Shown here piece after piece: positions 27,049 through 61,491 of a stretch of DNA of 64,000 nt. Origin of the DNA: Aquificaceae bacterium (GTDB lineage: Bacteria > Aquificota > Aquificia > Aquificales > Aquificaceae); NCBI GenBank assembly GCA_026981975.1, contig JALSHV010000011.1, forward strand, positions 1-64,000. Reading direction: 5' to 3'. Numbering within the stretch: position 1 is the stretch's first letter; each line of letters starts with the position of its first letter. The translations under genes were made by a program, and so were the position numbers. Under the pieces are notes generated by a model, which made no database searches, was not told the origin of the DNA, and saw only the letters and a program-made list of their open reading frames with translations.

Positions 27049-27055
27049 GGTATTT

Positions 27056-28435: not shown

Positions 28436-28445
28436 TCTAATTCTG

Positions 28446-36136: not shown

Positions 36137-36164
36137 TTGACAATAACGTTTTATCTGTTATTAT
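36137..36164 (+). promoter_or_regulatory. Early promoter with operator O4
   Basis: TTGACA (36137-36142), 16 bases, TATTAT (36159-36164). The operator ATAAC-N9-GTTAT is at 36143-36161, with one CG step lost from the right half, so it is slightly weaker than O1/O3. It lies directly after dnaB. Confidence 0.75.
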
Positions 36165-39646: not shown

Positions 39647-39675
39647 TTGACTAATAACGTATAAAGCGTTATTAT
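39647..39675 (+). promoter_or_regulatory. Early promoter with operator O5
   Basis: TTGACT (39647-39652), 17 bases, TATTAT (39670-39675). The perfect inverted repeat ATAACG-N7-CGTTAT is at 39654-39672. The central seven bases differ from O1/O3, so conservation is confined to the half-sites. It drives the beta-clamp gene. Confidence 0.8.
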
Positions 39676-42949: not shown

Positions 42950-42961
42950 GGAGGTAGAGTG

Positions 42962-44777: not shown

Positions 44778-44783
44778 TTTTTG

Positions 44784-44805
44784 ATAACGTTTAGTTTGTT
44801 ATTAT
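44784..44805 (+). promoter_or_regulatory. Promoter with operator O6
   Basis: Operator ATAACG-N7-TGTTAT at 44784-44802, TATTAT at 44800-44805. The -35 is poor (ATTTTT at 17 bases, or TTGATT at 19), so this promoter may need help. It opens the group of genes leading to the modification island. Confidence 0.7.
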
Positions 44806-44823: not shown

Positions 44824-45513
44824 ATGAGAAAGCTTTACACTTCCTACTACAGTCTCTACTGTTTCAAAACCGGGTATTTTAAGAGCAAGAGACTCCTTGG
44901 GGTCAGGATTACCGTCGGCAAGCCCGCTTGGTGTGGGGATAAGGTAGAGGAAGAGTACCTTGCCCTTGCTCCCTATGGAGTTTTGGGGGAGGAAGACTGG
45001 AGTAAGTACAGAGAGTTGTACTTTTCAAGGGTGCTGGGGAAACTCAATCCCAGGAAAGTGTTTGAAGATCTTCGCAGGCTTGCCGATCCTTATATACCCG
45101 TTCTTCTGTGTTATGAGCCTCCCAAGGAAGGATATAACTGCCACAGGTGGCTCGTGGCTGAGTGGTTTAAAGAAGCCGGTATAGAGGTTGAAGAGTTCGG
45201 ATATCCGCGATGGATTGATAGATGGATAGCTCAGCAGAAGAACTTAAATATTTCTTTTCCGAAGGAACAAACAGATTTATTCAGTGATATGGAGAAAAGA
45301 GTAAAGGCGAGAGCCAGGTATGTGAAGATACTTGGATGCGAAAACGGTGTATGCAGGGTTAAAGGGAGTTCGGGCAATATTTACGAGGTGGACGTAGGAA
45401 AAGGTACCTGTACATGTCCTTTCTTTCAGAACAGGTGGATCAAGTGTAAGCATATGTATGCGGTTGAAGAGTATCTCGGCAAGGAGATAGAGGTCAGGAA
45501 GGTGGCGAAATGA
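44824..45513 (+). CDS. DUF488-like domain fused to SWIM zinc finger
   Basis: 229 residues. The N-terminal part ends in VLLCYEPPKEGYNCHRWLVAEW (Cys106-His107-Arg108), the hallmark of DUF488. The C-terminal SWIM motif CTCPFF..CKHM places zinc ligands at 196, 198, 208 and 210. SWIM fingers bind DNA or protein. The catalytic role of DUF488 is unknown. The stop overlaps the start of the Mom-like gene as ATGA, so the two are coupled. Confidence 0.75.
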   Translation: MRKLYTSYYSLYCFKTGYFKSKRLLGVRITVGKPAWCGDKVEEEYLALAPYGVLGEEDWSKYRELYFSRVLGKLNPRKVFEDLRRLADPYIPVLLCYEPPKEGYNCHRWLVAEWFKEAGIEVEEFGYPRWIDRWIAQQKNLNISFPKEQTDLFSDMEKRVKARARYVKILGCENGVCRVKGSSGNIYEVDVGKGTCTCPFFQNRWIKCKHMYAVEEYLGKEIEVRKVAK

Positions 45514-46886
45514 TTTTCTTCGGACGACTCCGAAAACCCGAACAACAGTTTATCTGGAAGCTCGGAAAGGAAGGGGTCTTTGACGGAAGGGATGTTCAGA
45601 TAATAGGGAGCGGGAGTTTTACTTTTGAGCAGATACTGAAACACTTTTCTCCGAAAACAGTTTTCGGAAATGATATTAGTTTGCTTACTGTTGTTGTTGG
45701 GGATTATATACTCGGCAGGGAAAGGGATATATGGATAAAGGACACAAGGGAAGGGGAGATATTCAGACCATTACTTGAGGATAGGATGGATGGAACTTTA
45801 GGCAAGGCTGCCTCCGTTCTCAGTGTTTATCACTATACCTCTTACTACCCTCTCAATAACCTGCACAAGGTGAGGCTCTTTAACCAGGAGCTTAAGAGAT
45901 TTGACAGGGTTTACGAAGGATGCGTTGAGTTTCTGAAGGAATTCAAGGAAAAGGTCAGACTGGACGACCTTGTGGTCAGGGACGGGGTGGAGGTAATCGG
46001 AGACAAAAGCAGGCTTTACATATGGCATCTGCCTTTCTCTGAGGGAGACGGCTATCTCAGGGACTACAGGCTTGTTAATGCTGTCTTCGGATGGGACGCT
46101 CCTGAATACAGGAAGATGACTACAGAGAGAAACATTTCTCACTTGAGGAAGTTTATCTCTGAAGGATATGACTTCTTGTTCTTTACATCTCACTATGTTG
46201 ACGATTGCAGGGATTATATACTTGCCAAGTTCAAGTATAAGAACAACGACATCGTTTACGTTTACGGGAATTTTGATGAAAGGGTTTATTGGGCTAAGAG
46301 ATGGGCACCGGCTACCGCACCCGGTAACTACCCTATGCTCTCCGACGAGTTTGTATTTACTGAGGAAACGGATATAGGGTTTCGGGTCGTTGACAGGAAG
46401 ACTTTTAACTACTACAGGGAGCTCTTTATAGGAAAGGACAAGGTTAGATTCTACAGCAACCCTTCCGACTCTATCCCGGTTCTCCTCTTTGCTGACTCAA
46501 AGTTTTTCGGATTTCTGCTCTTTGCCAGGGACAGGTTTTCATACAAGCTCGGCAAAAGGCCTTATGCTTTTCTGGTTTCGGACTTCAGGGTTCCATCCGA
46601 GATTCGTAGGTTGTCCAAGCTTGTGATTATGCTGGCGAGAAGTAAGGAGATGAAAAGGCTTTACGAACACAGGTACGGTGTTGTTGTTGATGAGCTTGTA
46701 ACAGCTGTTTATACGGAAAAACCAGTTTCAATGAAGTACAGAGGAGAATACAGCCTTATAGCCAGAAAGAAAAAAAGGATCGGTGAGGAGACGTTTTATT
46801 ACCTGACGTATAAGGCTTCGTTTGGAAACAAGAGCTTGAAAGAGGAGTACCTGCTTTGGTTGAAGAAACATTTTTGTCTGGGTTAA
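45510..46886 (+). CDS. Methyltransferase-like plus Mom-like acyltransferase protein, candidate DNA base modifier
   Basis: 458 residues in two parts. Residues 28-68 look like a Rossmann methyltransferase fold (VQIIGSGSFTFEQIL, then VFGNDISLLTVVVGDY). The C-terminal third (about 310-415) is Mom-like, with FLVSDFRVPSEIRRLSKLVIML near 354-374 and KPVSMKYRG at 404-412. Mom of phage Mu modifies adenine at N6 to evade restriction. The fused form is known as a phage antirestriction-type family, but its exact product is not established. It sits with ParB-like and GNAT-like genes. Confidence 0.7.
   Translation: MIFFGRLRKPEQQFIWKLGKEGVFDGRDVQIIGSGSFTFEQILKHFSPKTVFGNDISLLTVVVGDYILGRERDIWIKDTREGEIFRPLLEDRMDGTLGKAASVLSVYHYTSYYPLNNLHKVRLFNQELKRFDRVYEGCVEFLKEFKEKVRLDDLVVRDGVEVIGDKSRLYIWHLPFSEGDGYLRDYRLVNAVFGWDAPEYRKMTTERNISHLRKFISEGYDFLFFTSHYVDDCRDYILAKFKYKNNDIVYVYGNFDERVYWAKRWAPATAPGNYPMLSDEFVFTEETDIGFRVVDRKTFNYYRELFIGKDKVRFYSNPSDSIPVLLFADSKFFGFLLFARDRFSYKLGKRPYAFLVSDFRVPSEIRRLSKLVIMLARSKEMKRLYEHRYGVVVDELVTAVYTEKPVSMKYRGEYSLIARKKKRIGEETFYYLTYKASFGNKSLKEEYLLWLKKHFCLG
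45650..45668. repeat. Palindrome copy 1 (inside the Mom-like gene)
   Basis: CCGAAAACAGTTTTCGG (45651-45667), a 17-base inverted repeat about an A, lies in codons about 47-53 of the Mom-like gene. The same 17 bases occur at 54645-54661. An exact palindromic match 9 kb apart is unlikely by chance and suggests a protein-binding site. Confidence 0.55.
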
Positions 46887-47152: not shown

Positions 47153-48053
47153 GATAGGGTTTGTTGATCCTAAGGAGCTGAAACTTCTGGAGAAGAACGC
47201 AAGATACATGCCTGCAGAGATGTTTGACAGGCTTGTTCAGAACATCAAGAAGGACAAACAGCTGAGTTCGGTTCCTTTCTGTTACCTTGACCCCGAAACC
47301 GGGGAGATGACTGTTCTTTCGGGAAACCACAGGGTTAAAGCTGCTCTTGCCGCCGGACTTGAGGTCATACCCGTTATGTGGAATGTGGAACCTATGACCG
47401 AAGACGAGAGACTTGCTATACAGCTTTCTCACAACGCTATACAGGGTATGGACGATCTCCAGATACTGAAAGAGCTTTACTCCAAGATACAGGATGTTGA
47501 ACTGAAGGAGTACGCCGCTGTGGACATAGCCTACGATCTTTTGGATCTGGAAGAAGAGGAGGAGGTTAACACGGATCTTATATCTACTCCTGATCTTCCG
47601 GACAGAACTATAGTGCTTGTATTTACCGAACCCGAATTTCAGAGGATAAGGGAGATCCTTGAGAAGTATGAAGGAGACACGGTGCTACTTGCTCATGAGG
47701 ACCAGTATGAGAAGTTCAACCAGATCGTTGCTAAGCTCAGGGAAGAGTATGACGTTTTCAACACCGCTACTGTTTTCCGCATATTGATTGAAGGTTTTGA
47801 GAAGTTTATGAAAAAAGAAGCTGAACTGGATGACCTTTACAGAGGGGATGTGGACGTTGAGGGCATGGTCAACTGGAGGGTCGGGGGGACGAAGGGAGTT
47901 GTTGATGTGAGAACCGCCCGAAAGCTCAAGAAGTTGATAGATAGATACGGGCTTGATGAGATAGTCAGGATTCTTGAGGAGTATGAGGCAAGGAGCGTTA
48001 TAGATGAGAACCTTGACAGACCCGTCTTTCCAGATCTTGAAGAGTTTTCTTGA
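47106..48053 (+). CDS. ParB-like nuclease-domain protein
   Basis: 315 residues. The N-terminal ParB fold is clear: KELKLLEKNARYMP (28-36) and VLSGNHRVKAALAAGLEVIPVMW (70-92, GNHR box). It is followed by a helical region and an unknown C-terminal half. In phages and mobile islands such ParB domains act as CTPases or nucleases and are often linked to DNA-modification enzymes or PAPS-reductase-like proteins (IbrB with IbrA). Good AGGAGGT. It overlaps the next gene by 50 bases. Confidence 0.82.
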   Translation: MSLKSLREVAQIGKFKIGFVDPKELKLLEKNARYMPAEMFDRLVQNIKKDKQLSSVPFCYLDPETGEMTVLSGNHRVKAALAAGLEVIPVMWNVEPMTEDERLAIQLSHNAIQGMDDLQILKELYSKIQDVELKEYAAVDIAYDLLDLEEEEEVNTDLISTPDLPDRTIVLVFTEPEFQRIREILEKYEGDTVLLAHEDQYEKFNQIVAKLREEYDVFNTATVFRILIEGFEKFMKKEAELDDLYRGDVDVEGMVNWRVGGTKGVVDVRTARKLKKLIDRYGLDEIVRILEEYEARSVIDENLDRPVFPDLEEFS

Positions 48054-48876
48054 TAGATACAGGCCCCTATCTCTCAGGGAAGTTGTTAAGTCATTTCCCG
48101 AAACGAATTACCTCGTATCCTTTCCTGTTATAGCTCTTTATTACGATCTCCTGCGTTTTCTTGAAAGGAGGAGCGTTGTATTTTTTGATGGGCTTGTGTG
48201 CCTTCTTGAAAAGAAGACCCTCCTGTTGTACGGAGGGGAGTACGACCTTTCCGGGTTTGAGGGGTGGACCGTTAAAAGTGCTCAGCGGTTACCTTTTAAA
48301 GGCGGTCGCAAGTACGTGGAAACCCTCTATTGCCTTGATCAGGTTCTTGATCCTTCTTCTTACCCTAAGAGAAAGCACAGGAAAAAGAAACTTCTTTATC
48401 CTTTGAGAAGAGCTGAGAGAGAAGGAGTGGAGATCAGGGATCTCGGGGAGGAGTGGCTTGTTAAGGCTGTAGAACTTTCGGAGAGGTGGGAGGAGTACAA
48501 GGTAAGTTCGGGAAAGGTTTACGTTAGAGGTTTTCCGAAGGGGGAGTTCAGGAGGATGGCTGAGAGGTTTTTCCTTCTCAGGAAGCTCGGGATTGTGAAC
48601 GGGTACATGTTCGGCGTTTTTGTTAAAGAGAAGCCCTACTATATCGGGATAGATGTTTTTCTGTCTCCGGAAACGGTTTACGGGGTTGCTGGGTTTTCCC
48701 TTTCCTTTGATTTTGACAGGAGCTTCGGGAACGAGGCGTTTCTTCTGGAGTGCGCCTTTTTGCATGAGAGGGGGCATCGGCGACTTAACGTAGGTTTCTC
48801 AACGGACAAGACGGTGAGGGAGTTTAAGGAGAAATGGGTTCACGAATCTCGGGTAAGTTATCAGTACAGGATCTGA
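48004..48876 (+). CDS. GNAT/FemAB-like acyltransferase, copy 1
   Basis: 290 residues. The C-terminal half (from about 150) reads as a GNAT/DUF2156/FemAB-type acyltransferase fold, ending RRLNVGFSTDKTVREFKEKW, the 'NxG..xD..xxxxKxKW' pattern of that group. The N-terminal half (PLSLREVVKSFPETNYLVSFPVIALYYDL, RSVVFFDGL) is shared with the next gene. Start ATG 48004, 8 bases after AAGGAG. The acceptor is unknown; context suggests modified DNA bases. Confidence 0.65.
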   Translation: MRTLTDPSFQILKSFLDRYRPLSLREVVKSFPETNYLVSFPVIALYYDLLRFLERRSVVFFDGLVCLLEKKTLLLYGGEYDLSGFEGWTVKSAQRLPFKGGRKYVETLYCLDQVLDPSSYPKRKHRKKKLLYPLRRAEREGVEIRDLGEEWLVKAVELSERWEEYKVSSGKVYVRGFPKGEFRRMAERFFLLRKLGIVNGYMFGVFVKEKPYYIGIDVFLSPETVYGVAGFSLSFDFDRSFGNEAFLLECAFLHERGHRRLNVGFSTDKTVREFKEKWVHESRVSYQYRI

Positions 48877-49704: not shown

Positions 49705-49738
49705 TTGATGCTATTAATCACACTTTGTATGTTATTAT
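49705..49738 (+). promoter_or_regulatory. Late promoter L1 with imperfect operator
   Basis: TTGATG (49705-49710), 17 bases, TATGTT (49728-49733), followed by TATTAT. An imperfect operator AATCAC-N9-GTTATT starts at 49716. It precedes the terminase group. Confidence 0.7.
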
Positions 49739-49763
49739 CTGTAAGGATGTGTAAGGATAGGGT

Positions 49764-50099
49764 ATGAAGGTACTTAAATACTTGGACTATGTGAATGAAC
49801 AGGTTGCTGAGGCAAAGATAAGGCTCGGTAAGGGGTTTTATGCTTACACGGGCGGTGAGTATGTCAGGCAGAAGCTGGCGACGAAGCACGGGTGTAAGGA
49901 CTTCAGGTATATAAGACTCAGGAAGCCGGGTAGGCTTCTTCTTCTGTGTATAAGGGACAAACCCGGACTTCGTGGTGGAAGGACTAAGGCTATAGCTCTG
50001 CTTCGGGATAAAGACATTGATTTGAGAACTTTGGGGAAAGACAGGGCGGTCAGGAAGGCTATCAAAAGGTTTAGGAAGTTCGTACATGGGACGCCGTAA
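49764..50099 (+). CDS. Unknown basic late protein
   Basis: 111 residues, strongly basic (RDKDIDLRTLGKDRAVRKAIKRFRKF at the end). The first late gene, directly upstream of and overlapping the small terminase by 14 bases. Possibly a DNA-binding packaging accessory, an inference from charge and position. Confidence 0.5.
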   Translation: MKVLKYLDYVNEQVAEAKIRLGKGFYAYTGGEYVRQKLATKHGCKDFRYIRLRKPGRLLLLCIRDKPGLRGGRTKAIALLRDKDIDLRTLGKDRAVRKAIKRFRKFVHGTP

Positions 50100-50640
50100 G
50101 TATAACTGGGAAGCGGCTAAGCTTAAGTATGTGCAGGGTATTGTAAATGAAGAGGGTAAGAGGGTTTTTCCCACGCTTGAGGAAATAGCTAAGGAGCTTG
50201 GCTGTCATGTGGGTCTTGTTTACAGGAGGGCTGCCAAGGAGAAGTGGACCTTTGAGAGAGAATTGTTTTTAAGGAAGCTGGAGGAAGAGCACAAGAGGAA
50301 GAGAATAGAAAAGGTATCCAAGGATTTAAGTCAGATAGAGGACAGGGTTACACAGGGACTCAAATTCGCTACCGCTCAGCTGACAAAACACATAGCGGAC
50401 AGAGCAAACAGAGGGGAAGACTTTTCCTTGTCTGAAATAGAGACGATAGTTCGTATATTTTCTCGAATACAGCAGGCAACTAATTTGCTCCTCGGTAAAC
50501 CTACGCATATTGTTCAGAGCTTTGATAAAGATGTGAAGCAAGTTATCAAGGACAGAGAAACTGCGATAGCAATAATAACCGCTGTCAGACAGGTTATAAA
50601 CAAAAAGGCTTTAACTAAGAAGGGGAGACATCATGAGTAA
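50086..50640 (+). CDS. terS: Terminase small subunit
   Basis: 184 residues. The N-terminal HTH (FPTLEEIAKELGCHVGLVYRRAAKEKWTFERE, with the Tyr-Arg-Arg recognition-helix pattern) is characteristic of small terminases that recognise the packaging start. The central part is helical and likely oligomeric. It lies two genes before the large subunit, the usual order. Confidence 0.78.
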   Translation: MGRRKYNWEAAKLKYVQGIVNEEGKRVFPTLEEIAKELGCHVGLVYRRAAKEKWTFERELFLRKLEEEHKRKRIEKVSKDLSQIEDRVTQGLKFATAQLTKHIADRANRGEDFSLSEIETIVRIFSRIQQATNLLLGKPTHIVQSFDKDVKQVIKDRETAIAIITAVRQVINKKALTKKGRHHE

Positions 50641-50836
50641 CAAGGAAGCGTTTTTTGAGCTGTGCAGGGATATAGAGCTTGAGCTTATGTATCGCTTCGG
50701 GATGCTGGAGGAGGAGCTACGAGCGGTTGAAGAATACTTTCGCATAAAGCACAGGTATACCGACAGCGCAAGCTATAAACACGGTTTGAGGAGACTCCAA
50801 GAGTTTAAAGACAGGCTGATGGGGACGGTCAGGTGA
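50633..50836 (+). CDS. Small protein between terminase genes
   Basis: 67 residues, helical (FELCRDIELELMYRFGMLEEELRAVEEYF). It overlaps the genes on either side by 8 and 4 bases. Not recognised. Confidence 0.55.
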   Translation: MSNKEAFFELCRDIELELMYRFGMLEEELRAVEEYFRIKHRYTDSASYKHGLRRLQEFKDRLMGTVR

Positions 50837-52638
50837 ACGAGGAATACCTTGAGATCCTCGTTTCCGACGTTTTTGAGGAGAAGCCTGTAGATATTGAAGA
50901 GTTTGTCAACTATTACCTCGGGCTGAAGGGGCAGGTGTTCCCTAAGTTGATGGATCTCTTGATTAAGGTCTGGCATGAGGGAGAGTATTTTCTTGTGGTT
51001 CTTGACGGGGGTATAGGATGGGGGAAATCAACCTTTGCGAAGATAAACCTTCTGTATCTGTTTTACAACGCCATTATCCTGAAAAGTCCTCAGAGGTTTC
51101 TCGGGTTTGTTGAGGGGACTGAGCTTCCCATACTTCTTGTTGGGGAAAGCCAGAAACAAGCGAAACATACCCTTTTCAACGATGTGAAGACCATTATGCA
51201 GAACTCTCCATATTTTGCGGAGAAGATAAAGAGCAGGGAGATCTTGATGTACGAAGCTAAGGACGGGGGTGAGGTAAGGCATGTTGGTAAGAATGTTGTG
51301 ATAGTGCCTCGTGGGATAGATGATACGGGGATACTGGGATTAAACCTCATAGGGGTCGTGATGGAGGAGGTTAACTTTTGGAGCGTGCTCGTAAACAGTA
51401 AGTTGGGAAGGAACTACGATACCGCAAGGGAGACCTTTGACAAGCTTCACAGGAGGTTCGTGTCGAGGTACGGGAACTTTGAAATCAGACAGCTTCCATT
51501 CATCCCCAAGTTCTTCGTTGTTTCCTCCAACCATAAAGAAAAGGATCTTACCTCCCAGCTTGCCAAGGAGTACGGTGGGTCTCCGAATTTTCTGTACCTT
51601 CACATGAGGTCATGGGACACCCACCCGTACGGGTGGCACGCTGAGGAAACTTTCAGGGTGTGCATAGGAAACCGTCAGCAGCTTCCGAGAATCATAGACT
51701 CAGAAGAGAGTTGCAGGGGATGCAAGATTGCTCTGGGGAGGACCTTTAAAAACTGCGGACATAAGATAGAGGAAGTCCCTGCGGATTACAGGGTGGATTT
51801 TGAGAGGGATATAGTCAGGAGTGTTAGGGATTATCTCGGATACCCCCAGTATGCGAGCTCCCCCTTTATAGCGGACAGGGAGCGGGTTTTCAACTGTATT
51901 GATGAAGTTCTTTCACATCCATGGGAGGATGAGGAGGTTGTTCCTTACGTTTCTATTGTTCAGGAGGTGCAGAGGTGGAAGATACCGCTTCCAGCCAAGA
52001 TCAAGGTCATCAATCCGCAGGCTAAGAGGTTTATCCACGTTGATCTCGGGCTCAGGAGGGATGCCTGCGGTATAGCCATGGGGCATGTGGAGGAGTTCGT
52101 CACCGTGGAGAGGATAGACGAGGAAGGCAACTCTTATTCCGAGACCCTTCCTGTTGTGAGGATAGACCTGATGGTGAGGATAGTGCCTCCGGAGGAAGGG
52201 GAGATAGAGATATCGGAGGTGAGGAACGTTCTTTACTACCTGCAATCAAGGGGATTCAATATTCACACGATCAGCTTTGACGGGTTTCAGAGTGCGGACA
52301 GCATACAGATACTGAAGAGGAGGTTCCCTGAAGTTGAGCTTCTGTCGGTTGACAGAAATACGCAACCTTACGAGTTCTTAAGGAGCGCTATATATGAAGG
52401 GAGGATCAGGTATTACCACTATAAACCCTTCATATCGGAGCTTCTTGAACTTGAGTTTGATGATGTGAAGGGGAAGGTGGATCACCCGCCGGGCGGATCC
52501 AAGGATGTGGCTGATGCTGTAGCCGGTGTGGTCTATCACTGCATGATAAAGAGTAAGGCTTCTTTTCCCTCCCGTATAGAGAGAGGGTATCCCCATGTGG
52601 GAGAGTCTCCGTGGTGGGAGAGGTTACGTGAGTTGTAA
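50833..52638 (+). CDS. terL: Terminase large subunit
   Basis: 601 residues. Packaging ATPase and nuclease: Walker A DGGIGWGKSTFAK (about 58-70), Walker B GLNLIGVVMEEVNFW (about 174-188), and an RNase-H-fold nuclease with acidic motifs FIHVDLGLRRDACG, HTISFDGFQSADS and SKDVADAVAGVVYHC. GTG start overlapping the upstream stop. The nuclease layout matches headful-packaging enzymes of T4-like or related phages. Confidence 0.95.
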   Translation: MNEEYLEILVSDVFEEKPVDIEEFVNYYLGLKGQVFPKLMDLLIKVWHEGEYFLVVLDGGIGWGKSTFAKINLLYLFYNAIILKSPQRFLGFVEGTELPILLVGESQKQAKHTLFNDVKTIMQNSPYFAEKIKSREILMYEAKDGGEVRHVGKNVVIVPRGIDDTGILGLNLIGVVMEEVNFWSVLVNSKLGRNYDTARETFDKLHRRFVSRYGNFEIRQLPFIPKFFVVSSNHKEKDLTSQLAKEYGGSPNFLYLHMRSWDTHPYGWHAEETFRVCIGNRQQLPRIIDSEESCRGCKIALGRTFKNCGHKIEEVPADYRVDFERDIVRSVRDYLGYPQYASSPFIADRERVFNCIDEVLSHPWEDEEVVPYVSIVQEVQRWKIPLPAKIKVINPQAKRFIHVDLGLRRDACGIAMGHVEEFVTVERIDEEGNSYSETLPVVRIDLMVRIVPPEEGEIEISEVRNVLYYLQSRGFNIHTISFDGFQSADSIQILKRRFPEVELLSVDRNTQPYEFLRSAIYEGRIRYYHYKPFISELLELEFDDVKGKVDHPPGGSKDVADAVAGVVYHCMIKSKASFPSRIERGYPHVGESPWWERLREL

Positions 52639-52665
52639 AGTCAATAGCGTATTGTATGTTATTAA
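52633..52665 (+). promoter_or_regulatory. Late promoter L2 with imperfect operator
   Basis: TTGTAA (52633-52638), 16 bases, TATGTT (52655-52660); the operator AATAGC-N9-GTTATT starts at 52643. It overlaps the terminase stop and precedes the portal gene. Confidence 0.65.
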
Positions 52666-52676
52666 ATGGGGGTCTC

Positions 52677-53837
52677 ATGGACTGGGGTAAGGAAATAAAG
52701 AGACTGCAGAGGAAGCTGAAAAAACCGAGACATTCTGAGTATGAACATATGGCTGAATATCCTTATGTTTACTCCGCCCTTCTTCTGTATACGGAAGAGA
52801 TACTTCAGGTAAATCCTGACACCGGAAGGATATATGAGGTTGAAGCTGATTCGAGGACCAGGGATGTTATAGAAACTCTTGAGAAGTCGGGTTTTGAGAA
52901 TATTCTCAGCATAGCGGTTTTCAGTGCGTGCCAGTATGGAGAGTTCACTCTCCGCTTTGATAAAGACATTCTGGATTTCCTTCCTCCAACTATGTATGAC
53001 ATTAGAGAGGAAAAGGGTGAGATAAAGCTGATGGTTAAGAACGGGGGTAAGGCGGAAGAGATACCGGATGACAGGTACTCAAGGCTTGCTTTCTTGACGG
53101 ACTACAGGGATTTCCCGTACGGGACCTCTATCCTTAAACCTGCGAGGCGGGTATGGAGGAACTTGAAACTTCTGGAGGAAGCGCTTCTCGTGTACAGGCT
53201 AACGAGAGCTCCTCAGAGGTACGTTTTTTACGTTTATACGGGGAACATGAATCCGAAGGAAGCACTGGACTATGTGAACCAGCTCAGAATGGACATCAAG
53301 AGGAGAAGGCTGGTAGATGAAAGAACAGGGGAACTCAGGAGAGAGCCAGGGTTTCTCTCTATAGACGACGATTTCTGGATACCTTTTGGAGAGGAGGGGA
53401 AGGAGACGAGGGTGGATGTTTTGTCGGGAGCTTCCAACGTATCGGACATAGCGGATGTGGAGTATTTTCTCTCCCAGTTTTTCGGGGCTTTAAGGATACC
53501 CAAGGCATACATGGGAAATGAGTATGACGTGAACAGGGCAACGCTTGTCATGCAGGATACGAGATTTGCGAGAACCATAAAGAGACTGCAGAAGTTTGTC
53601 CAGAGCTGGCTTGAGGACTTTTTCTTCAAGTTTGCCAGAGTTCACGGGATAAGCTCGCCGAGGGTAAAGGTGAAGATGTTTTTCCCGAACATAGACGACG
53701 CTATGAGGATGGAGTACCTGATGAACAAAGTGGATCTTCTGGACAGGATGTCAGGTCTCAGGGACGGTGAGGGGAATTCCATCTTCAGCAAGGATGAGCT
53801 CATAAAGTTCTGGAAGGGGGAGGGGGATGTACGGTAA
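52677..53837 (+). CDS. Portal protein, T4 gp20-like
   Basis: 386 residues. The portal ring forms the DNA entry of the head. TRAPQRYVFYVYTGNMNPKEA, LDYVNQLRMDIKRRRLVDERTGEL, FLSIDDDFWIPFGEEGKETRVDVL and SGASNVSDIADVEYF match T4 gp20 (Gp20 family). It is shorter than gp20 of T4 (about 520). I chose ATG 52677; an ATG at 52656 lies in the promoter -10 region. Confidence 0.85.
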   Translation: MDWGKEIKRLQRKLKKPRHSEYEHMAEYPYVYSALLLYTEEILQVNPDTGRIYEVEADSRTRDVIETLEKSGFENILSIAVFSACQYGEFTLRFDKDILDFLPPTMYDIREEKGEIKLMVKNGGKAEEIPDDRYSRLAFLTDYRDFPYGTSILKPARRVWRNLKLLEEALLVYRLTRAPQRYVFYVYTGNMNPKEALDYVNQLRMDIKRRRLVDERTGELRREPGFLSIDDDFWIPFGEEGKETRVDVLSGASNVSDIADVEYFLSQFFGALRIPKAYMGNEYDVNRATLVMQDTRFARTIKRLQKFVQSWLEDFFFKFARVHGISSPRVKVKMFFPNIDDAMRMEYLMNKVDLLDRMSGLRDGEGNSIFSKDELIKFWKGEGDVR

Positions 53838-54636
53838 GTGGGCAGAGCTTCCTGTGTTTGATTTTATGGATGTGTCTTCCGAGGTTCTTGCTGAAGCCAA
53901 GTCTATCGGATGGAAGAACAAGTGGGATGAATTGAAACGGATACAGCTTCTCGGAATGGCTGTTAAACTCGGGGGGTTCCTGAGAGACATCAGGAGAAGG
54001 AAAGCCAGGAATGCAAGGGCAAAGTTTTTGAAAATAAAAGAAGAGTTCAGAAAGAAAGGATGGGCTGTTTTGAGCGATTTTATAGAGGGGAGGTTGGGAA
54101 GAGCGGAAGCTGAAGCGGGTCTCAGGAAGCTCATGAGAGAGTATTATAGAAAGGCTTTTGAACTCGGGCACGAGAGTTCGGGAATGGCTGACTGGGTAGA
54201 GCTGAGCGATAGAGATCATGAGTGGGTCAATTCCTCTTACAAGGAAGAAGTCAGGTACCTTGTCAGGTTCTTGGATGATATTGAGAGCGGGAACGGAAAA
54301 GTGGACTACAGGAAGAGGTGGGAGATGTATGTTGAGACCCTTGAGCATGTGTTTTTCTCCGGAAAGATGGTGTCTGTTCCGGAGGGGTACGTTATAGACT
54401 GGGTGATGAACAGGTCCGCTGAACACTGTGGAGGGTGTGAGTTTTTGAGGAAGAATTCACCGTATACAAGGAACAGCCTACCGACCGTTCCGAAGGCTGG
54501 AGCTACCCCCTGCCTATCAAACTGCAGGTGCAGGTTGAGAGTAAGACTCCCTAAAAGCAGGGAAGAGTATGTGAGAGCGAACAGGAAGAGCAGGAAGAGC
54601 ATTCTCCTGCAACTTAGGAAGATAAAACAGGGCTGA
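53827..54636 (+). CDS. Minor head protein, possibly Mu gpF-like
   Basis: 269 residues, helical and basic at the start. The C-terminal CGGCEFLRKNSPYTRNSL..GATPCLSNCRCRLRV resembles the Cys-rich end of Mu-F-like head morphogenesis proteins. It overlaps portal by 11 bases, as in many phages where the minor head gene follows the portal. Confidence 0.6.
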   Translation: MYGKWAELPVFDFMDVSSEVLAEAKSIGWKNKWDELKRIQLLGMAVKLGGFLRDIRRRKARNARAKFLKIKEEFRKKGWAVLSDFIEGRLGRAEAEAGLRKLMREYYRKAFELGHESSGMADWVELSDRDHEWVNSSYKEEVRYLVRFLDDIESGNGKVDYRKRWEMYVETLEHVFFSGKMVSVPEGYVIDWVMNRSAEHCGGCEFLRKNSPYTRNSLPTVPKAGATPCLSNCRCRLRVRLPKSREEYVRANRKSRKSILLQLRKIKQG

Positions 54637-54643
54637 CGTTTTT

Positions 54644-54662
54644 ACCGAAAACAGTTTTCGGT
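54644..54662. repeat. Palindrome copy 2 (intergenic)
   Basis: CCGAAAACAGTTTTCGG (54645-54661), exact match to 45651-45667, extended to 19 bases by flanking A/T. It lies between the head gene and late promoter L3, whose -35 starts at 54669. No T-run follows it in the plus direction, so it is not a standard terminator. Confidence 0.55.
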
Positions 54663-54668
54663 GGTAAG

Positions 54669-54701
54669 TTGCAGGTTCAATCACATTTAATATGTTATTA
54701 T
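54669..54701 (+). promoter_or_regulatory. Late promoter L3 with imperfect operator
   Basis: TTGCAG (54669-54674), 16 bases, TATGTT (54691-54696); operator AATCAC-N9-GTTATT starts at 54679. It drives the scaffold, protease and capsid genes. Confidence 0.7.
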
Positions 54702-54715
54702 TAGGAGGTGTTCAG

Positions 54716-55204
54716 ATGAAAGAACATGTTCAGGCTGTAGTGGACTCTTTTCTCAAGGAAGGGAGGATAGATTCGGAAGCCCTTTCTGAAGCCATCAGGG
54801 TGGGTGTAAGGAAGAGAAAAAGGAAGGTAGATCCCGGACAGAGGAGGAAGTGGAAAGAGTACTACAGAAAGAACAGAGCGAAGATCCTGAGAAGGGTCAA
54901 GCAGTGGGCGAGGAAGAACAAGGCGGTCCTCAAGCAGTATGCGAAGAAGTACAGGCAGATGTTCGGAAAGAAGGAGGGAGTTGATCTTGTGGAGGACGTA
55001 GACATGCTCAGGGACAGGGTAGAGGAGTTGATCTCTTTTGTGGAGGAGATAGAGGCGGACGGTACGGAAGAACTCCTTTCTACACTTGAAGAGCTGGCGG
55101 AGATGCTTGATGAGGTTGAAGAGCTTGACGAGGAAGAGGTTGGAGAGATAGAGGAGATGTTGGACGAGATAGAGAAAGCGATACTTGCGGTTGAGGAGGA
55201 TTGA
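54716..55204 (+). CDS. Acidic/basic coiled-coil protein, possible capsid assembly core protein
   Basis: 162 residues from ATG 54716 behind AGGAGGTG. The first 90 are strongly basic (KKNKAVLKQYAKKYRQMFG). The last 70 are extremely acidic (EELDEEEVGEIEEMLDEIEK) and would coil. Such bipolar charged proteins are common prohead cores. It sits directly before the protease. Function inferred from position and composition. Confidence 0.55.
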   Translation: MKEHVQAVVDSFLKEGRIDSEALSEAIRVGVRKRKRKVDPGQRRKWKEYYRKNRAKILRRVKQWARKNKAVLKQYAKKYRQMFGKKEGVDLVEDVDMLRDRVEELISFVEEIEADGTEELLSTLEELAEMLDEVEELDEEEVGEIEEMLDEIEKAILAVEED

Positions 55205-55206
55205 TC

Positions 55207-56244
55207 ATGGGTGTTCTTGTAGAGACCACGTACCTCCAGCCGGAGGTTATCAAAGAAAACAAGGGCGGGAAAGAGGTTGTAAGGTTCAGGGGGGTTTTCC
55301 AGAGGGCGGACGTGGTCAATGAGAACGGCAGGAGGTACCCGAGGAAAGTTCTTGAGAAGGCTATTAAGGAATTTGAGAAAAAGATTAAAGAAGGAAGGGC
55401 TGTAGGTACTCTTGAACACCCCCTTGATGGCATCACGAGGCTTGATGCTATCAGCCACAAGATAGTCAGTGTGGAGCTGAAGGAGAACGGCGAGGTTGTG
55501 GGAGAGTTTGAGGTTCTGGATACTTCTAAGGGGAAGGATCTCAGAGCTCTTCTTGAAGCGGGGGTAAAGATAGGGATTAGTTCCAGGGGGTTCGGTTCAA
55601 CCAAGAAGATCAGGGACGGCGATAAGGAGATAGAAGAGGTGCAGGAAGACTTCAGGTTTGAGGCTTTTGACGTTGTATACAACCCTTCTACGCCCGGCGG
55701 ATGGGTGCTTCTGAAGGAGTCACTGAACGAAGCCGGGCTTGTCAGGAAGGAAGATGTTGAGAAGCTCGTTGAAGAACTTATAGAGGCTTTCGCGGAGAAG
55801 TTTGAGGAGTTTGCGCGGGCTGTCATTGAGGAGGTACCCGGGGTTGTGGAGGGGGAACTGGAAAACAGACCTGACATCAAAGCTGTTGTGGCTGTTGAGG
55901 CTATAGCGAGGATACTTGCTCCTATAGTCCCTGAAATAGCGGAGTGGATAGCGGAGGCAAACTGTGAGGAAAAGGAGAAGCTTGAGGAAGAACTGAAGAG
56001 GAGGGATGAAGAAATTAGGAGGCTGACACTTGAGAATTACAAGTACCAGAAGATTAGCGAATCCGCCTATCCGGATGAGTTAAAGGAAGTTCTTTCTGAA
56101 GCCAGAACCATAGAGGAAGTTGATAGGCTTGTGGAGGACTTTAAGAGAAGGAAGAGGGTAAGGGTGACTGCAGAAGAGAAAAAAGAAGAAAAGAAACCTC
56201 TCTTTAGTAAGCTCAGAAAATTCCATGTTGGAGGTGGACAGTAA
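55207..56244 (+). CDS. Prohead protease, T4 gp21-like, fused to scaffold-like tail
   Basis: 345 residues from ATG 55207. The protease domain shows AVGTLEHPLDGITRLDAISHKI with His71, and VKIGISSRGFG with the nucleophile Ser125/126 region, the S80-type pattern. From about 165 the chain is helical and acidic, ending in a charged tail (RKRVRVTAEEKKEEKK), like a scaffold. In T4 the protease and core are separate genes, so this fusion is a difference. Confidence 0.82.
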   Translation: MGVLVETTYLQPEVIKENKGGKEVVRFRGVFQRADVVNENGRRYPRKVLEKAIKEFEKKIKEGRAVGTLEHPLDGITRLDAISHKIVSVELKENGEVVGEFEVLDTSKGKDLRALLEAGVKIGISSRGFGSTKKIRDGDKEIEEVQEDFRFEAFDVVYNPSTPGGWVLLKESLNEAGLVRKEDVEKLVEELIEAFAEKFEEFARAVIEEVPGVVEGELENRPDIKAVVAVEAIARILAPIVPEIAEWIAEANCEEKEKLEEELKRRDEEIRRLTLENYKYQKISESAYPDELKEVLSEARTIEEVDRLVEDFKRRKRVRVTAEEKKEEKKPLFSKLRKFHVGGGQ

Positions 56245-57689
56245 TGCTTATGACGAGACCTGTTTTCAACTCTTACGAGGATAAGGTTGAGTATGGACTG
56301 AGGGTGGTGGAGGAGAACCTGCCGTTTTTTGAGGGACTGGCGGAGATACACCCAAGGTTTAAGAGGGTGCTTGAGAGCAAGGACAGGTACAAGCTTGCTC
56401 TTCTCGGATTCATATTTGACAACACGGTCGGGAGGATGTCCGAGGTCCTGAGGGAATCCCCGGAGAGCATTAAGAAGATACTGGTAGAAGGGAGAAGCGT
56501 TCTTTCCGAGGCTACTTCCGTAAACGACATAGCCGGGTATGATGCGAACTATCTCGGGGTTGTGTCCTTCCTGTTCCCGACCACCCTTGCTTCTGAAATA
56601 GTGAACATACAGCCCCTTGAAGGTCCTACGGGGGTTATCTTTTACAAGAGGTACATCACCGAGCAGGCGAAGGGTAAGGTTGCGGCGGGAACGGAGCTGA
56701 CGAGGAGCGACCAGACAAGCCGGGGAGCTGCTGAGCAGGGTATAGCCGGAGATCTTGTAGTTGACGAGAAAATAGGAACCGGGGACGGAATAAATACTTC
56801 CTTTAACGGTACACTTGCGTGGACACCCGTTGTTCCATCTACCGTTACCATAACTGACGGAACTCAGATAATCACCGACGACGGAAACGGCGGGCTTACG
56901 GGAGATGGAAGCGGGACGATAAACTACGAAACCGGAGCCGTTGCTGTAACCTTCAACACAGCTCCTGCTAACGGTGCAAACATAACTGTTACCTACAGGT
57001 ATGAGAACCACGGTAACAAATTCATGACCGTGAAGATGAAGCTGGAGAAGAAAACCGTTTCCGCTCAGTCCAGGATTCTCGGTTTTCAGTGGGAGGCTGA
57101 AGCTCAGCAGGATCTTCTTGCATACCACCAGATAGCTATAGAGGACGATGTTGCTACCACCCTTGTTGAAGAAGTCGCTACAGAGATAGACTCTCATGTA
57201 CTTTCCGACTTGTATGCACTGGCTAATGCGGGTGTCTATAAGGAGATATGGGACTCCGCTCCTCCCGCCGGTACAGATCCCGTTCTTTACAGGCAGACGA
57301 TAGCCTTTGCCATCAGGAAGGTTTACACGAAGATAATAGATGCCATAGGCAGGAAACCTGCTAATTCTACCGCCTTTGCTGTTTGTGGCGCTGATGCGTG
57401 GCATTACGTTCAGACGAGTGGTAAGCTGGAAAACGGCAAGCTCGGCGGGGACATAAATGTCTACTATTCTCCTCTCGTTCCTGCAAACAGCATAATCGTT
57501 GGACTCAAGGGTAACGATGCGGTAACCGGTGGGTATGTATACGCTCCTTACAGGCTGGAGGTTTCTCCTGCTGTTCCTGCTGTTGTTAACGGACAGACAC
57601 ATCCTTTCCTCTACGTGAAAGGGATACTCAGCAGAGACGCCTTTGTTGTGGTGAATCCCAAGTTCTACGGCCTCGTTACGGTCACCTGA
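56244..57689 (+). CDS. Major capsid protein, T4 gp23-like, with inserted Ig-like domain
   Basis: 481 residues, HK97 fold by family. Recognisable parts include the N-terminal propeptide region and the spine helix (SIKKILVEGRSVLSEA), FLFPTTLASEIVNIQPLEGPTGVIFY and the late FLYVKGILSRDAFVVVNPKFYGLVT. LSE|A at 87-90 fits the gp21-type cleavage rule (I/L-x-E|A). Residues about 177-254 are an insertion that reads as a bacterial Ig-like module (GDGSGTINYETGAVAVTFN). The next gene starts 16 bases downstream. Confidence 0.88.
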   Translation: MLMTRPVFNSYEDKVEYGLRVVEENLPFFEGLAEIHPRFKRVLESKDRYKLALLGFIFDNTVGRMSEVLRESPESIKKILVEGRSVLSEATSVNDIAGYDANYLGVVSFLFPTTLASEIVNIQPLEGPTGVIFYKRYITEQAKGKVAAGTELTRSDQTSRGAAEQGIAGDLVVDEKIGTGDGINTSFNGTLAWTPVVPSTVTITDGTQIITDDGNGGLTGDGSGTINYETGAVAVTFNTAPANGANITVTYRYENHGNKFMTVKMKLEKKTVSAQSRILGFQWEAEAQQDLLAYHQIAIEDDVATTLVEEVATEIDSHVLSDLYALANAGVYKEIWDSAPPAGTDPVLYRQTIAFAIRKVYTKIIDAIGRKPANSTAFAVCGADAWHYVQTSGKLENGKLGGDINVYYSPLVPANSIIVGLKGNDAVTGGYVYAPYRLEVSPAVPAVVNGQTHPFLYVKGILSRDAFVVVNPKFYGLVTVT

Positions 57690-57704
57690 TAGTGGGGGTG
57701 CGGT

Positions 57705-58130
57705 ATGTACAGGAGGCTTCTTGAGCGATCTTCTAAGATTTCTCGCGAGAAGGGAAAGGGGGTTGTGGTTCCCCCCTCTCTTATAAAAGACCTTGCCAAG
57801 AAGGCGAAGTCCTTGGGGCTTGAAGTTGTTGATGAATACTCTGAAACGAAAGGGGGAGAGGTGATAACAGCCAGACTTTACATTCCTTTTGAGGATGGGC
57901 AGAACGTGGTGATGATAGATTCAACGTATTTCAAGTCCGAGAATCAGCTGGCAGGGAGCATAACTTTGAATTTTCCGGCCAAATCTTACTTCCCTTGGTA
58001 TGAGGTTAAAAACCTGCGTGATCTTGAAAGGTTCGGAGAAGAGTATGATGAGAGGGGCGAGTTTCACAGGAAGGTAGCCCAGTTTATTGATTATCTTGTC
58101 AAGAAACTTCAGAAGGAGGGTATAAGATGA
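57705..58130 (+). CDS. Unknown late protein, likely head-associated
   Basis: 141 residues, alpha then beta (GGEVITARLYIPFEDGQNVVMID) then helix. Position between capsid and neck genes. It overlaps the next small gene by 4 bases (ATGA). Not recognised. Confidence 0.5.
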   Translation: MYRRLLERSSKISREKGKGVVVPPSLIKDLAKKAKSLGLEVVDEYSETKGGEVITARLYIPFEDGQNVVMIDSTYFKSENQLAGSITLNFPAKSYFPWYEVKNLRDLERFGEEYDERGEFHRKVAQFIDYLVKKLQKEGIR

Positions 58131-58303
58131 ATACCATCAAGGTTAAAAACGTTACCCAGACAACGATAGGTGTGCCCGACGGAAAGGGGGGCACGATAAC
58201 CATAGCTCCCGGGGAGGAGAAGGAGATACCGACCAAGTACCTTGACTACCTGAAGGGAAGCGTGGCTCCAGTGAAGGGTAAACAGGGCGGAAGTAAGAAA
58301 TGA
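58127..58303 (+). CDS. Small SH3-like late protein, copy 1
   Basis: 58 codons missed by longer gene limits. IKVKNVTQTTIGVPDG..TIAPGEEKEIPTKYLDYLKG has the strand-turn-strand pattern of small phage structural proteins. It resembles the 52-codon gene at 61504 (KVKNVSGQAIPTSKG..PGQEVELSKEEANRLMK). Good AGGAGG. ATGA overlaps on both sides. Confidence 0.55.
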   Translation: MNTIKVKNVTQTTIGVPDGKGGTITIAPGEEKEIPTKYLDYLKGSVAPVKGKQGGSKK

Positions 58304-58974
58304 CAAGAGATGACCTTCGGTTGTTTTTACGCAGGTATCTTGGGGATGGGGTTGTAGGTGTTGAGCTGACAGACCAGCATCTTGACACAGCCATAGACTC
58401 AGCTCTTCACTGGCTTTCCGGGTATATAAAGAAAGAGGGCGCTGTTACCCTGAGCGGGAGGGTGGGTCAGAGCAAGTTTGATCTTTCCGGACTTCCCTTG
58501 CACGCAAAGGTTGTGGACGTTAGAAGAGCTCCTTCCCCCTCCCTCTCCTCCCCCTTTTCTCCCTTTTTTTATGAAGACATTTCCGATGTTAGCGATTACG
58601 CTATAAGGGCTAACTATGCGGAGAGTGTTAGGAAGCTTCTGGGAAAGGATCCCGTCTGGAAGTATGAACCACCTTTCCTCTATATAGACCCTCCATCTTC
58701 CGGAAATGAGACCATAAGGGTTGTGTACGTTATCCCTTTTACGGACCCCTCGGAAGTGCCGTATGACCTTCTTCACCCTTTTGTGGAGTACACCAAGGCT
58801 TGTGCTAAGGAAATCCTTGCAAGGATCAGGGGGAAGTACAGAGGAGTGCCTGCTCCTGAGGGAACCGTAGAGCTTGATTATTCCGATCTGCTTTCGGAGG
58901 CACAGCAGGAGAAGGAGACAGCAACGCAGGAACTCCTGAGAAGAATTCCCTCCGCCGGGTTTGCTGTTGGATAA
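58300..58974 (+). CDS. Neck or head-completion protein
   Basis: 224 residues. The N-terminal helices (DDLRLFLRRYLGDGVVGVELTDQHLDTAIDSALHWLSGYIK) and the central beta region with EPPFLYIDPPSSGNETIRVVYVIPF match connector-type proteins that fix the tail to the portal. Position (after capsid, before tail completion) supports it. Exact T4 counterpart not certain. Confidence 0.55.
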   Translation: MTRDDLRLFLRRYLGDGVVGVELTDQHLDTAIDSALHWLSGYIKKEGAVTLSGRVGQSKFDLSGLPLHAKVVDVRRAPSPSLSSPFSPFFYEDISDVSDYAIRANYAESVRKLLGKDPVWKYEPPFLYIDPPSSGNETIRVVYVIPFTDPSEVPYDLLHPFVEYTKACAKEILARIRGKYRGVPAPEGTVELDYSDLLSEAQQEKETATQELLRRIPSAGFAVG

Positions 58975-58985
58975 GGAGGGTAAGT

Positions 58986-59414
58986 ATGCTTACCGAGGCT
59001 GAGAAATCCGAAATAAGAAAGCTGATCCGTAAACTGAAGAGAAAGAACAGGAGGAAACTGAAAAGACTTGTCAGGGCAAAGGTAGTTTATCCTGACATTC
59101 TCAAGACAGATGCGGGATACAGACGGGCTGTTTCAGATGTTGTGATTGAATACGGGGAGATTGTTGAGGCTTTATCCTTTCTTGAAGGGCTTGAAGGGAA
59201 GAGTCTCAAGTGTGCTCAGAAGTATGCGGTTCTTGATGACTCCGGGAACATAAAACACTTCAAGGGTCCTCCCGGGAAGGGAATCAGGTTCAGGAACTGC
59301 GTGGATTACTTTAAATGTCTTGGCAAGGGAGAGGAGAGAGCTAAAGGCATATGTGCTGCTATAGCAAGGGCTAAGTGCAGGTCAGGTGACAGGTACGCTT
59401 GCGGGAGACATTAA
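58986..59414 (+). CDS. Unknown late protein with Cys-rich end
   Basis: 142 residues. Basic N terminus (IRKLIRKLKRKNRRKLKRLVRAK). The C-terminal 60 residues carry six cysteines (FRNCVDYFKCLGKGEERAKGICAAIARAKC..) that could bind metal or form disulfides. Starts 11 bases after the neck gene behind AAGGAGG. Confidence 0.5.
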   Translation: MLTEAEKSEIRKLIRKLKRKNRRKLKRLVRAKVVYPDILKTDAGYRRAVSDVVIEYGEIVEALSFLEGLEGKSLKCAQKYAVLDDSGNIKHFKGPPGKGIRFRNCVDYFKCLGKGEERAKGICAAIARAKCRSGDRYACGRH

Positions 59415-59722
59415 TGACTGAGAAGCAGAAGAAGTTTCTTGTCCAGCTGGTTGAAGAAATAGGAGTGGCAAGGTTTGCAGAAATCGTTGAGGAGATGGGG
59501 GTGGACATAAGCTCGCTTATAAGCAGGTGTGTGGCTGAGCGTGAGGAACTTTTTGAACTTAAAGAACGCTTGAGAAATCATCCCAGGTTCAAGGAGCTTT
59601 ATGACTGGCGCATTCTTTTGTATGCGGATAGAGAGTTCTGTGAACTCCTGATGGAAGAGCTTGAAGGATCAAAAAGCATAGAAGAGGAACTTAAGGAGGC
59701 GTTTCATGAAGCTTCAAGTTAG
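59414..59722 (+). CDS. Unknown small late protein
   Basis: 102 residues from ATG 59414, which overlaps the upstream stop by one base (a TTG at 59399 is possible). Helical and acidic. Not recognised. Confidence 0.45.
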   Translation: MTEKQKKFLVQLVEEIGVARFAEIVEEMGVDISSLISRCVAEREELFELKERLRNHPRFKELYDWRILLYADREFCELLMEELEGSKSIEEELKEAFHEASS

Positions 59723-59924
59723 TGTGGTGGACGGTTCCCTGGGGGTGATTAAGCTGAAGACTTCCGAGGCACAGGTTTGTTCCCTCGGTATTGACAGGTT
59801 CAGGGAAAACCTTTACAGGATGATTGACAGAGCTGTTGAGGAGATAGAGAAGAACCTCAGGGACAGCGAGGCTACTTACATAAACAAAACTTTGCGTGTT
59901 GGGAAGAAAATCTTAAATGATTAA
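59706..59924 (+). CDS. Unknown small late protein
   Basis: 72 residues, one strand then helices (RFRENLYRMIDRAVEEIEKNL). Starts behind AAGGAGG inside the previous gene. Not recognised. Confidence 0.45.
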   Translation: MKLQVSVVDGSLGVIKLKTSEAQVCSLGIDRFRENLYRMIDRAVEEIEKNLRDSEATYINKTLRVGKKILND

Positions 59925-60318
59925 CGATTACAACCCTTCTCCCTACATAGCTGAGTACTTTTCTCTTTATTACAGACCTGTCAACGTGTATCCCCTTGAC
60001 AGGACAACCACTCAGGTGGACAGTCTATACGGAGAGGCTAAAGACAGAGTTTATACCACACCTATAACAATTCCTATCTACTTCAGATTTGACGTGGATG
60101 AGAAAACCCTTACAAAGTTCGGTATAGACAGGAAGGAGGATCTTTTTGTGGTTATAAGTTATGCCTTAGTACAGAATGCGGGATGGGACCCACAGCCCGG
60201 AGACAGGGTAGAAATAGACGGCGAGCACTTTGAGATAACTTTCCTGAAGCCTCAGTATGACTTTAATGGCAGTGTGTATCTTTACGTTGGGACAGCCAAG
60301 AGATGGCAATCAGGATAA
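59917..60318 (+). CDS. Tail-connector-type protein
   Basis: 133 residues. Beta-rich with TPITIPIYFRFDVDEKTLTKFGI, DLFVVISYALVQNAGWDPQPGDRVEIDGEHFEITFLKPQ, a pattern of neck or head-tail joining proteins. It overlaps its neighbours by 8 and 16 bases. Function inferred from place and style. Confidence 0.5.
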   Translation: MINDYNPSPYIAEYFSLYYRPVNVYPLDRTTTQVDSLYGEAKDRVYTTPITIPIYFRFDVDEKTLTKFGIDRKEDLFVVISYALVQNAGWDPQPGDRVEIDGEHFEITFLKPQYDFNGSVYLYVGTAKRWQSG

Positions 60319-60890
60319 AACCTATCGGGAAGGTTTACGAGCCTAAGGCGGTGGAAAAGGTTGTCAGAGAGTATATTGAGAGGGGACTTGAAGAGATAGC
60401 GCAAGCGCTTGCGGAGGATGTTACTAAAAGAGTTCAGCCTGACTGGCTCAGGAACAGGGTCAGGCTTTTAATGAAGAGGGCTGTTGTTCTGGAACAAGGA
60501 TTCCAGAGGTTTATGGCTGAACGCATAGCGGAGCACTTAAAGAATGGGATTTTCAGGCAGAAATGGAAATCAAGGTGGAAGCGTTTGTCTCCGAAATATT
60601 TGAAGTGGAAAAAGAGGAAGGGTTTGGATACCCGCATTCTTCTTGCTCATCACTATTACATCAGCTCTATAACTGTTTACCGTTCGGGTGGTGACTGGGT
60701 GGTGGGGGTAAAACCTTTTCAGAAACACCCGGCAACTGGGGTGCGGATGGAAAAGCTTGCAAGGTTTCTGGAGTTCGGCACATCTCGTATGCCTCCGAGA
60801 CCTCACTGGAGACCCGCCCTTGAGGAAGTAAGAAGAAACTCGGGAAGATTTTTGAGGAGATACTTGAGAGATGTTAAGGCTTTTAGATGA
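60303..60890 (+). CDS. Tail completion protein, HK97 gp10-like
   Basis: 195 residues. LARFLEFGTSRMPPRPHWRPALEEVRR is the diagnostic end-loop of the HK97 gp10/virion-morphogenesis group (FxEFGT...MPPRP). Central basic part KWKSRWKRLSPKYLKWKKRKG. It helps to finish the head-tail joint. Confidence 0.78.
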   Translation: MAIRIKPIGKVYEPKAVEKVVREYIERGLEEIAQALAEDVTKRVQPDWLRNRVRLLMKRAVVLEQGFQRFMAERIAEHLKNGIFRQKWKSRWKRLSPKYLKWKKRKGLDTRILLAHHYYISSITVYRSGGDWVVGVKPFQKHPATGVRMEKLARFLEFGTSRMPPRPHWRPALEEVRRNSGRFLRRYLRDVKAFR

Positions 60891-61461
60891 GATAACCGAA
60901 CACCTCTTAAGCGGTTTTGTGGTGGAGAGGAACGGACAGTATGTGAATGTGAGCAGGATAGTGTATGCAACTCCTGAAAGAGCTTTTTCTGGAGATGATA
61001 CTAAGAGGATAGATCTTCCCGTTGTGTCCTTTTACAGGGTTTCTCAAGAGTTCGGGACTGAATTTCACAGCTTTGGTCTCCAGGACACAGGAGTTTTCTA
61101 CAGAGATCCGGCGAACTATCAGACCACTCTATCAGGCGTGCGTTACAAACTGCTCCCTGTAAGGGTTTTTTACCAGGTAGATTTCTGGGTCAAGTTTATG
61201 GACGACATGCAACTTTTGCAGACCCAGCTCCTTCACTACTTCAGACCTGTTCTGAGGAGGTATATGAAACTTCCATCGGGCGGTGGTGTTCCTCTGGATT
61301 ACGTCCTTCAGGGCATGGTAGATAATTCAGATCTGGAACCCGGTGAGGATGAAAGGGTGTTGAGGTTTTCAGCGGATCTCAGTGTAGAAGGGTACTTGCC
61401 CCTGGGGGATTTTACTATCAAGCTTATCAGGGACACAGTGATTATTCTGGAGAGCCTTTGA
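60871..61461 (+). CDS. Tail terminator-like late protein
   Basis: 196 residues, alpha/beta, with LPVVSFYRVSQEFGTEFHSFGL and VDFWVKFMDDMQLLQTQLLHYF. Position directly after the gp10-like protein and before the sheath suggests a tail-terminator role. It is the last gene before promoter L4. Weak evidence from sequence alone. Confidence 0.5.
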   Translation: MLRLLDEITEHLLSGFVVERNGQYVNVSRIVYATPERAFSGDDTKRIDLPVVSFYRVSQEFGTEFHSFGLQDTGVFYRDPANYQTTLSGVRYKLLPVRVFYQVDFWVKFMDDMQLLQTQLLHYFRPVLRRYMKLPSGGGVPLDYVLQGMVDNSDLEPGEDERVLRFSADLSVEGYLPLGDFTIKLIRDTVIILESL

Positions 61462-61491
61462 CAAATATGATTACATTCAATATGTTATTAT
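61458..61491 (+). promoter_or_regulatory. Late promoter L4 with imperfect operator
   Basis: TTGACA (61458-61463), 17 bases, TATGTT (61481-61486): the best late promoter. The operator GATTAC-N9-GTTATT starts at 61469. It drives the tail genes. Confidence 0.8.

Follow-up and report, generated by a model that had tools for sequence, protein, structure and literature searches.

Copies of an early-type operator inside the late promoters of an Aquificaceae prophage

The prophage and its genes

The window analysed here comprises the first 64,000 nucleotides of contig C11 (JALSHV010000011.1; 73,923 bp), part of an Aquificaceae genome of 1.61 Mb. A tailed prophage with a contractile tail takes up the last 48 kb or so of the contig, from about 25.9 kb onwards; it begins with an integrase gene adjoining a tRNA-Arg. 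The integrase gene is followed by an xis-like gene, a leftward gene for a Cro/CI-type regulator, genes for a CII-like regulator (CP76) and an S24 LexA-like protein, and the replication genes. The late genes are ordered as terminase, portal, head protease, and major head protein, then tail sheath, tube, and baseplate. Conserved DNA-binding proteins encoded by the phage are the Cro/CI-type, CP76, and S24 proteins, and two ribbon-helix-helix proteins. In agreement with an earlier note on this DNA, none of the genes scanned against Pfam and PHROGs was recognised as encoding a late sigma factor or an antiterminator, and none as encoding a dedicated late activator; several proteins are of unrecognised kind (e.g., 49764-50099 and 48004-48876). 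The literature on Aquificales prophages yielded nothing on the present phage, and little on gene control in this group.

Near the left prophage end, AATAACGGATTGTAAGCAATT (25969-25989) lies beside the direct repeat ATGTCAGAAAAATGTCAG; both are kept in a relative described below (contig C263, reverse strand 8255). It is possibly an arm site of the integrase or Xis protein, or a weak operator.

Operators in early and late promoters

The earlier note had described four late sites of the form RATNRC-N9-GTTATT on the forward strand, each with a TTG-type -35 and a TATGTT -10. All four occur exactly as described, and their -35 boxes lie 16-17 bp before TATGTT (Table 1). A fifth late operator, ahead of the baseplate gene, is an independent success of the motif, lying 7 kb beyond the window where the earlier reader could not see it. 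Five of the six intergenic gaps above 25 bp in the late region carry an operator. The early set exists too and is larger than had been implied, with seven sites, one of which (27886) has ATTAAC as its left half.

Table 1. Candidate regulatory genes and operators of the prophage (contig C11; 'relative' is the orthologous position in the related prophage)
Feature	Position	Strand	Sequence	Context
Integrase gene (int)	26038-27066			Beside tRNA-Arg
Early operator	27074-27094	+	GATAAC-N9-GTTATT	Between divergent int and xis-like gene; relative AATAAC-N9-GTTATT
Cro/CI-type HTH regulator (RstR-like)	27297-27866	-		Rival candidate binder
Early operator	27886-27906	+	ATTAAC-N9-GTTATT	Between divergent Cro/CI-type gene and CP76-S24 operon; relative likewise ATTAAC
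CII-like (CP76) regulator	27920-28411	+		In operon with S24 gene
S24/LexA-like repressor	28389-29048	+		Candidate binder; A107-G108, S140, K178/K179 conserved
Early operator	29381-29401	+		Before recT-like gene; relative ATTAAC-N9-GTTATT
Early operator	36142-36162	+	Perfect	Before double ribbon-helix-helix gene; relative perfect
Early operator	39653-39673	+	Perfect	Before sliding-clamp gene
Operator	43727-43747	+	Perfect	In 3' end of gene 42959-43759; promoter boxes not clear; relative GATAAC-N9-GTTATT
Early/middle operator	44783-44803	+	GATAAC-N9-GTTATT	Relative perfect
Late operator	49716-49736	+	AATCAC-N9-GTTATT	Before 111-aa gene and terminase genes; -35 TTGATG, -10 TATGTT
Late operator	52643-52663	+	AATAGC-N9-GTTATT	Terminase large subunit/portal junction; -35 TTGTAA
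Late operator	54679-54699	+	AATCAC-N9-GTTATT	Before 170-aa gene, head protease, major head protein; -35 TTGCAG
Late operator	61469-61489	+	GATTAC-N9-GTTATT	Before tail sheath and tube genes; -35 TTGACA
Late operator (outside window)	71227-71247		AATCAC-N9-GTTATT (AATCACGTTTAATATGTTATTA)	Before baseplate gene; -35 TTGACA

Most sites lie in intergenic promoter gaps; the exceptions are 43727, a candidate for a stoperator-like block of elongation, and perhaps 29993. The latter is a high-scoring operator-like sequence (29993-30013) inside the recT-like coding region; it is the best-scoring position outside the listed sites in the early-only motif model introduced below, and is weakly conserved in the relative. 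The 27886 operator, placed ahead of the CP76-S24 operon, is likely to be autoregulatory. Given how near the 52643 operator is to portal, that gene must start at 52677, and not at the ATG within the -10 box. Just ahead of the third late promoter is an inverted repeat (ACCGAAAACAGTTTTCGGT, 54640-54665), part of which (TTTTCGGT) is shared with the relative; it is a possible terminator.

The pattern RATNRC-N9-GTTATT matches 15 times in the window, against 0.12 expected from dinucleotide shuffles. Its looser form RWTNRC-N9-GTTATT occurs at 14 places in the 48-kb prophage and at eight in the remaining ca. 1.56 Mb, being about 57-fold denser in the prophage. The left flank of the late GTTATT matches AATAAC at a mean of 4.75 of 6 bases at spacing 9, compared with 1.58 (sd 0.52) at other spacings. 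A generic sigma-70 scan gave 12 matches in total against 10.6 by chance, and among the late promoters found only that at 61458-61486 (10/12); the late -35 and -10 boxes therefore rest on recurrence and conservation, rather than on consensus strength. The ATT that follows the late TATGTT is almost invariant, though no promoter box needs it.

Conservation in related phages

Searching 64 genomes of the family located the terminase in two others (G011 and G013). The prophage on contig C329 of G011, whose portal and terminase are 72-74% identical to those of the window phage, is largely syntenic with it from the helicase region to the tail; its immunity region is on contig C263. This relative carries the operator at all five orthologous late positions, with left halves AATAAC, GATTAC, AATAAC, AATCAC, and AATCAC (in the order 49716 to 71227), each followed by N9-GTTATT. 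A sixth late site, AATCAC-N9-GTTATA with a TTGACA box, stands before the gene for the terminase small subunit; upstream of this site is additional sequence that the window phage does not have. Conservation extends to the early sites, among them the imperfect ATTAAC between the divergent regulator genes and the copy in the 3' end of gene 42959-43759. At orthologous sites the identity is 82% in the left half, 100% in the right half (slightly biased, as the relative's sites were found via this half), 57% in the spacer, and 39-48% in the flanks.

In the third phage, a fragment on contig C216 of G013, TATAAC-N9-GTTATA stands at the terminase-portal junction, the same junction as 52643, and TATTAC-N9-GTTATA in the gap after the gene next to portal. 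The outer base is thus altered in both halves together (T/A), i.e., symmetrically. Farther afield, IMG/VR searches with terminase, S24, and Cro/CI-type queries found no distant relatives; the tail sheath query returned 23 distant loci, among which no set of promoter-placed motif copies was seen, and AATAAC-N9-GTTATT was not seen near the S24 homologues from other genera (G036 and G048), where only short loci were available.

Relationship between the early and late sites

When a motif model built from only the 13 early sites of two phages was used to rank 101,097 positions, all 11 late sites, none of them used in training, came within the top 29, in line with the earlier view of the late sites as imperfect copies of the early operator. 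This ranking, the orthologous sites, and the symmetric change in the third phage show that late sites and early operator are genuinely related. A separate, late-specific motif is ruled out by the perfect early-type copies at late positions in the relative. The proposal that a different protein might act at the late sites fares badly on the same grounds: the relative has a perfect AATAAC at its 49716 and 54679 orthologues, and TATAAC and GTTATA changed as a pair in the third phage. That the resemblance merely reflects chance, or a -10 and promoter sequence (TATGTTATTA) shared by A+T-rich gaps, would suit a generic promoter scan that does not exceed chance, yet is scarcely credible given the spacing-9 peak of the left half, the held-out ranking, the orthologous conservation, and the symmetric change in the third phage.

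The late sites nevertheless form a class. Early left halves are AATAAC, GATAAC, or ATTAAC, with A at positions 4 and 5 in all 13, whereas among the 11 late ones AATCAC accounts for six and GATTAC for two. Late left halves are altered at positions 4-5 (9/11 versus 0/13 early; Fisher p = 4e-5), late sites score lower on average in the early-only model (Mann-Whitney p = 0.013), and late sites have the -10 TA at positions 7-8 of the spacer (10/11 versus 0/13 early; p = 6e-6), all of these p-values being optimistic because sites of two related phages are counted as independent. The idea of a graded system is hence partly supported: the weaker late left half is a tendency, not a rule, since two of the six late sites in the relative are perfect.

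A second class difference, absent from the earlier note, concerns the register of the operator on the promoter. At 9 of the 11 late sites the -35 begins 10-11 bp ahead of the left half; at most early sites with a clear -35 the distance is 5-7 bp. Relative to both promoter boxes, the operator is therefore displaced downstream by ca. 5 bp, or half a helical turn, in the late class. One late site of the relative (17243) combines the early register with a perfect left half.

Candidate regulators

The palindromic form of the site suggests a dimeric binder; the candidates encoded by the phage are the S24, Cro/CI-type, and ribbon-helix-helix proteins. The S24 protein (PF00717, E 4e-20) shares with LexA/S24 phage repressors a cleavage domain with the Ala-Gly cleavage site and the Ser-Lys pair. 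With 48.9 bits against the cut-off of 110.95 for the LexA family TIGR00498, it is not LexA itself, and to our knowledge the operator half-site is unlike known LexA boxes. Its N-terminus looks like an HTH and the PHROG repressor family phrog_4 aligns from residue 23; no Pfam HTH matched there, and the predicted fold has a pLDDT of 30.6. Between the two phages its HTH region is identical at 50 of 64 residues (78%), versus 86 of 133 (65%) in the C-terminal part. Such HTH conservation, together with the LexA-type cleavage region, moderately favours the S24 protein as the putative binder. Against it stands that its gene lies in a rightward operon, while the leftward gene here encodes the Cro/CI-type protein; in many phages the lysogenic repressor is the leftward gene. 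The Cro/CI-type protein is the next candidate. Its HTH, the one part in which the predicted model is confident, is 57% identical between the two phages, and the protein's likely contact residues are partly conserved. Taken alone, a spacing of 9 between the half-sites favours neither protein.

A model of direct repression and its alternatives

We propose, with a probability of about two in three and on the strength of sequence comparisons, that one dimeric lysogeny repressor, most likely the S24 protein, directly silences early and late promoters. Its binding site would be the 21-bp palindrome RATAAC-N9-GTTATT, which sits between the -35 and the -10 in nearly all lytic promoters, those driving the packaging, head, tail, and baseplate operons among them. 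With the repressor bound, RNA polymerase would be blocked in the lysogen at early and late promoters alike. We infer repression as the sign of the regulation: with host-type -35 boxes and 16-17 bp spacing, the late promoters would otherwise be active in the lysogen, and direct repression is the simplest role for an operator in the spacer. The late copies are probably bound less tightly, having a weaker left half and lying ca. 5 bp further downstream of the boxes; the two perfect late sites in the relative count against a strict grading. Upon induction, self-cleavage of the S24 protein would release all promoters, the late ones then perhaps being limited by their poorer -10 boxes.

It is unlikely, though conceivable, that the sites are instead shared as between CI and Cro, the lysogenic repressor favouring the early sites and a second regulator preferring the late ones, thereby delaying or tuning late transcription. 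The Cro/CI-type protein could fill this second role, as could the double ribbon-helix-helix protein whose gene follows the 36142 operator. Such sharing would account for the non-random late left halves, and the phage encodes several conserved DNA-binding proteins that could serve. However, the left half shows no separate late consensus, two late sites of the relative have a perfect AATAAC, and the right halves are near-identical across the classes.

We give rather little credence to one regulator acting in two registers half a helical turn apart, repressing early promoters and exerting weaker, delayed, or even positive control over late ones. If true, such two-register control would time early and late expression with no need of a late sigma factor, activator, or antiterminator. 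Quite improbable is outright late activation, in which a protein bound in the spacer of the shifted late sites aids RNA polymerase in the manner of MerR or P1 Lpa and is needed for late transcription. The half-turn offset from the early register and the poor late -10 boxes would fit such a role, but the 16-17 bp spacers are ideal without an activator, two late -35 boxes of the window phage are a perfect TTGACA, and no MerR-type late gene was found.

Comparison with known systems

In most textbook temperate phages the late genes are silenced indirectly, through repression of an early activator or antiterminator. The present sites suggest that one repressor keeps the whole virus silent, and not only its early genes. 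Genome-wide phage repressors are already known; the present case stands out by its two registers and by having a palindromic copy in nearly all late promoters. In L5 and other cluster A phages, one repressor has 20-30 sites throughout the genome, beyond the early promoter (PMC6550527). These stoperators, which are asymmetric and 13 bp long, lie for the most part at a distance from promoters and block elongation; the repressor that reads them is a monomer (PMC6550527, PMC9283540). In our phage, repressor-type sites are likewise spread genome-wide (seven early and five late operators), but are palindromic, not asymmetric in a single orientation, and mostly inside promoters. The SPbeta master repressor MrpR (YopR) has SPBRE sites that recur in the prophage's intergenic promoter regions (PMC10516654); it differs in its 15-bp motif and tyrosine-recombinase fold from the 21-bp palindrome and candidate HTH repressors found here. 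The present case would work like the L5, SPbeta, and P1 systems, but by the features compared is not a member of the L5 kind.

Late promoters of P1 have an inverted repeat upstream of the -10. P1 also has scattered operators of one repressor, C1, while its late genes require the activator Lpa (PMC8198154). No Lpa-like activator was found here, and the late sites themselves resemble repressor operators.

An early operator copied onto late promoters, weakened and shifted, occurs in at least two Aquificaceae phages, with two further sites in the fragment of a third. These sites offer a natural set with which to ask if early-late timing can arise from affinity and register alone, and would provide a first testable scheme of gene control for the prophages of this thermophilic, deep-branching group.

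Other features of the prophage

A gene like TGT/DpdA (34078-34776) and, at 45510-46886, a gene like phage DNA-adenine methylases together with a GNAT gene suggest that the phage DNA is hypermodified. At the end of a lipoprotein-like gene, a tandem duplication of ca. 37 bp (TTTCTAACGGTTTTAAAACAATAAATTGCTCT) lies at about 69475-69555 of the contig.
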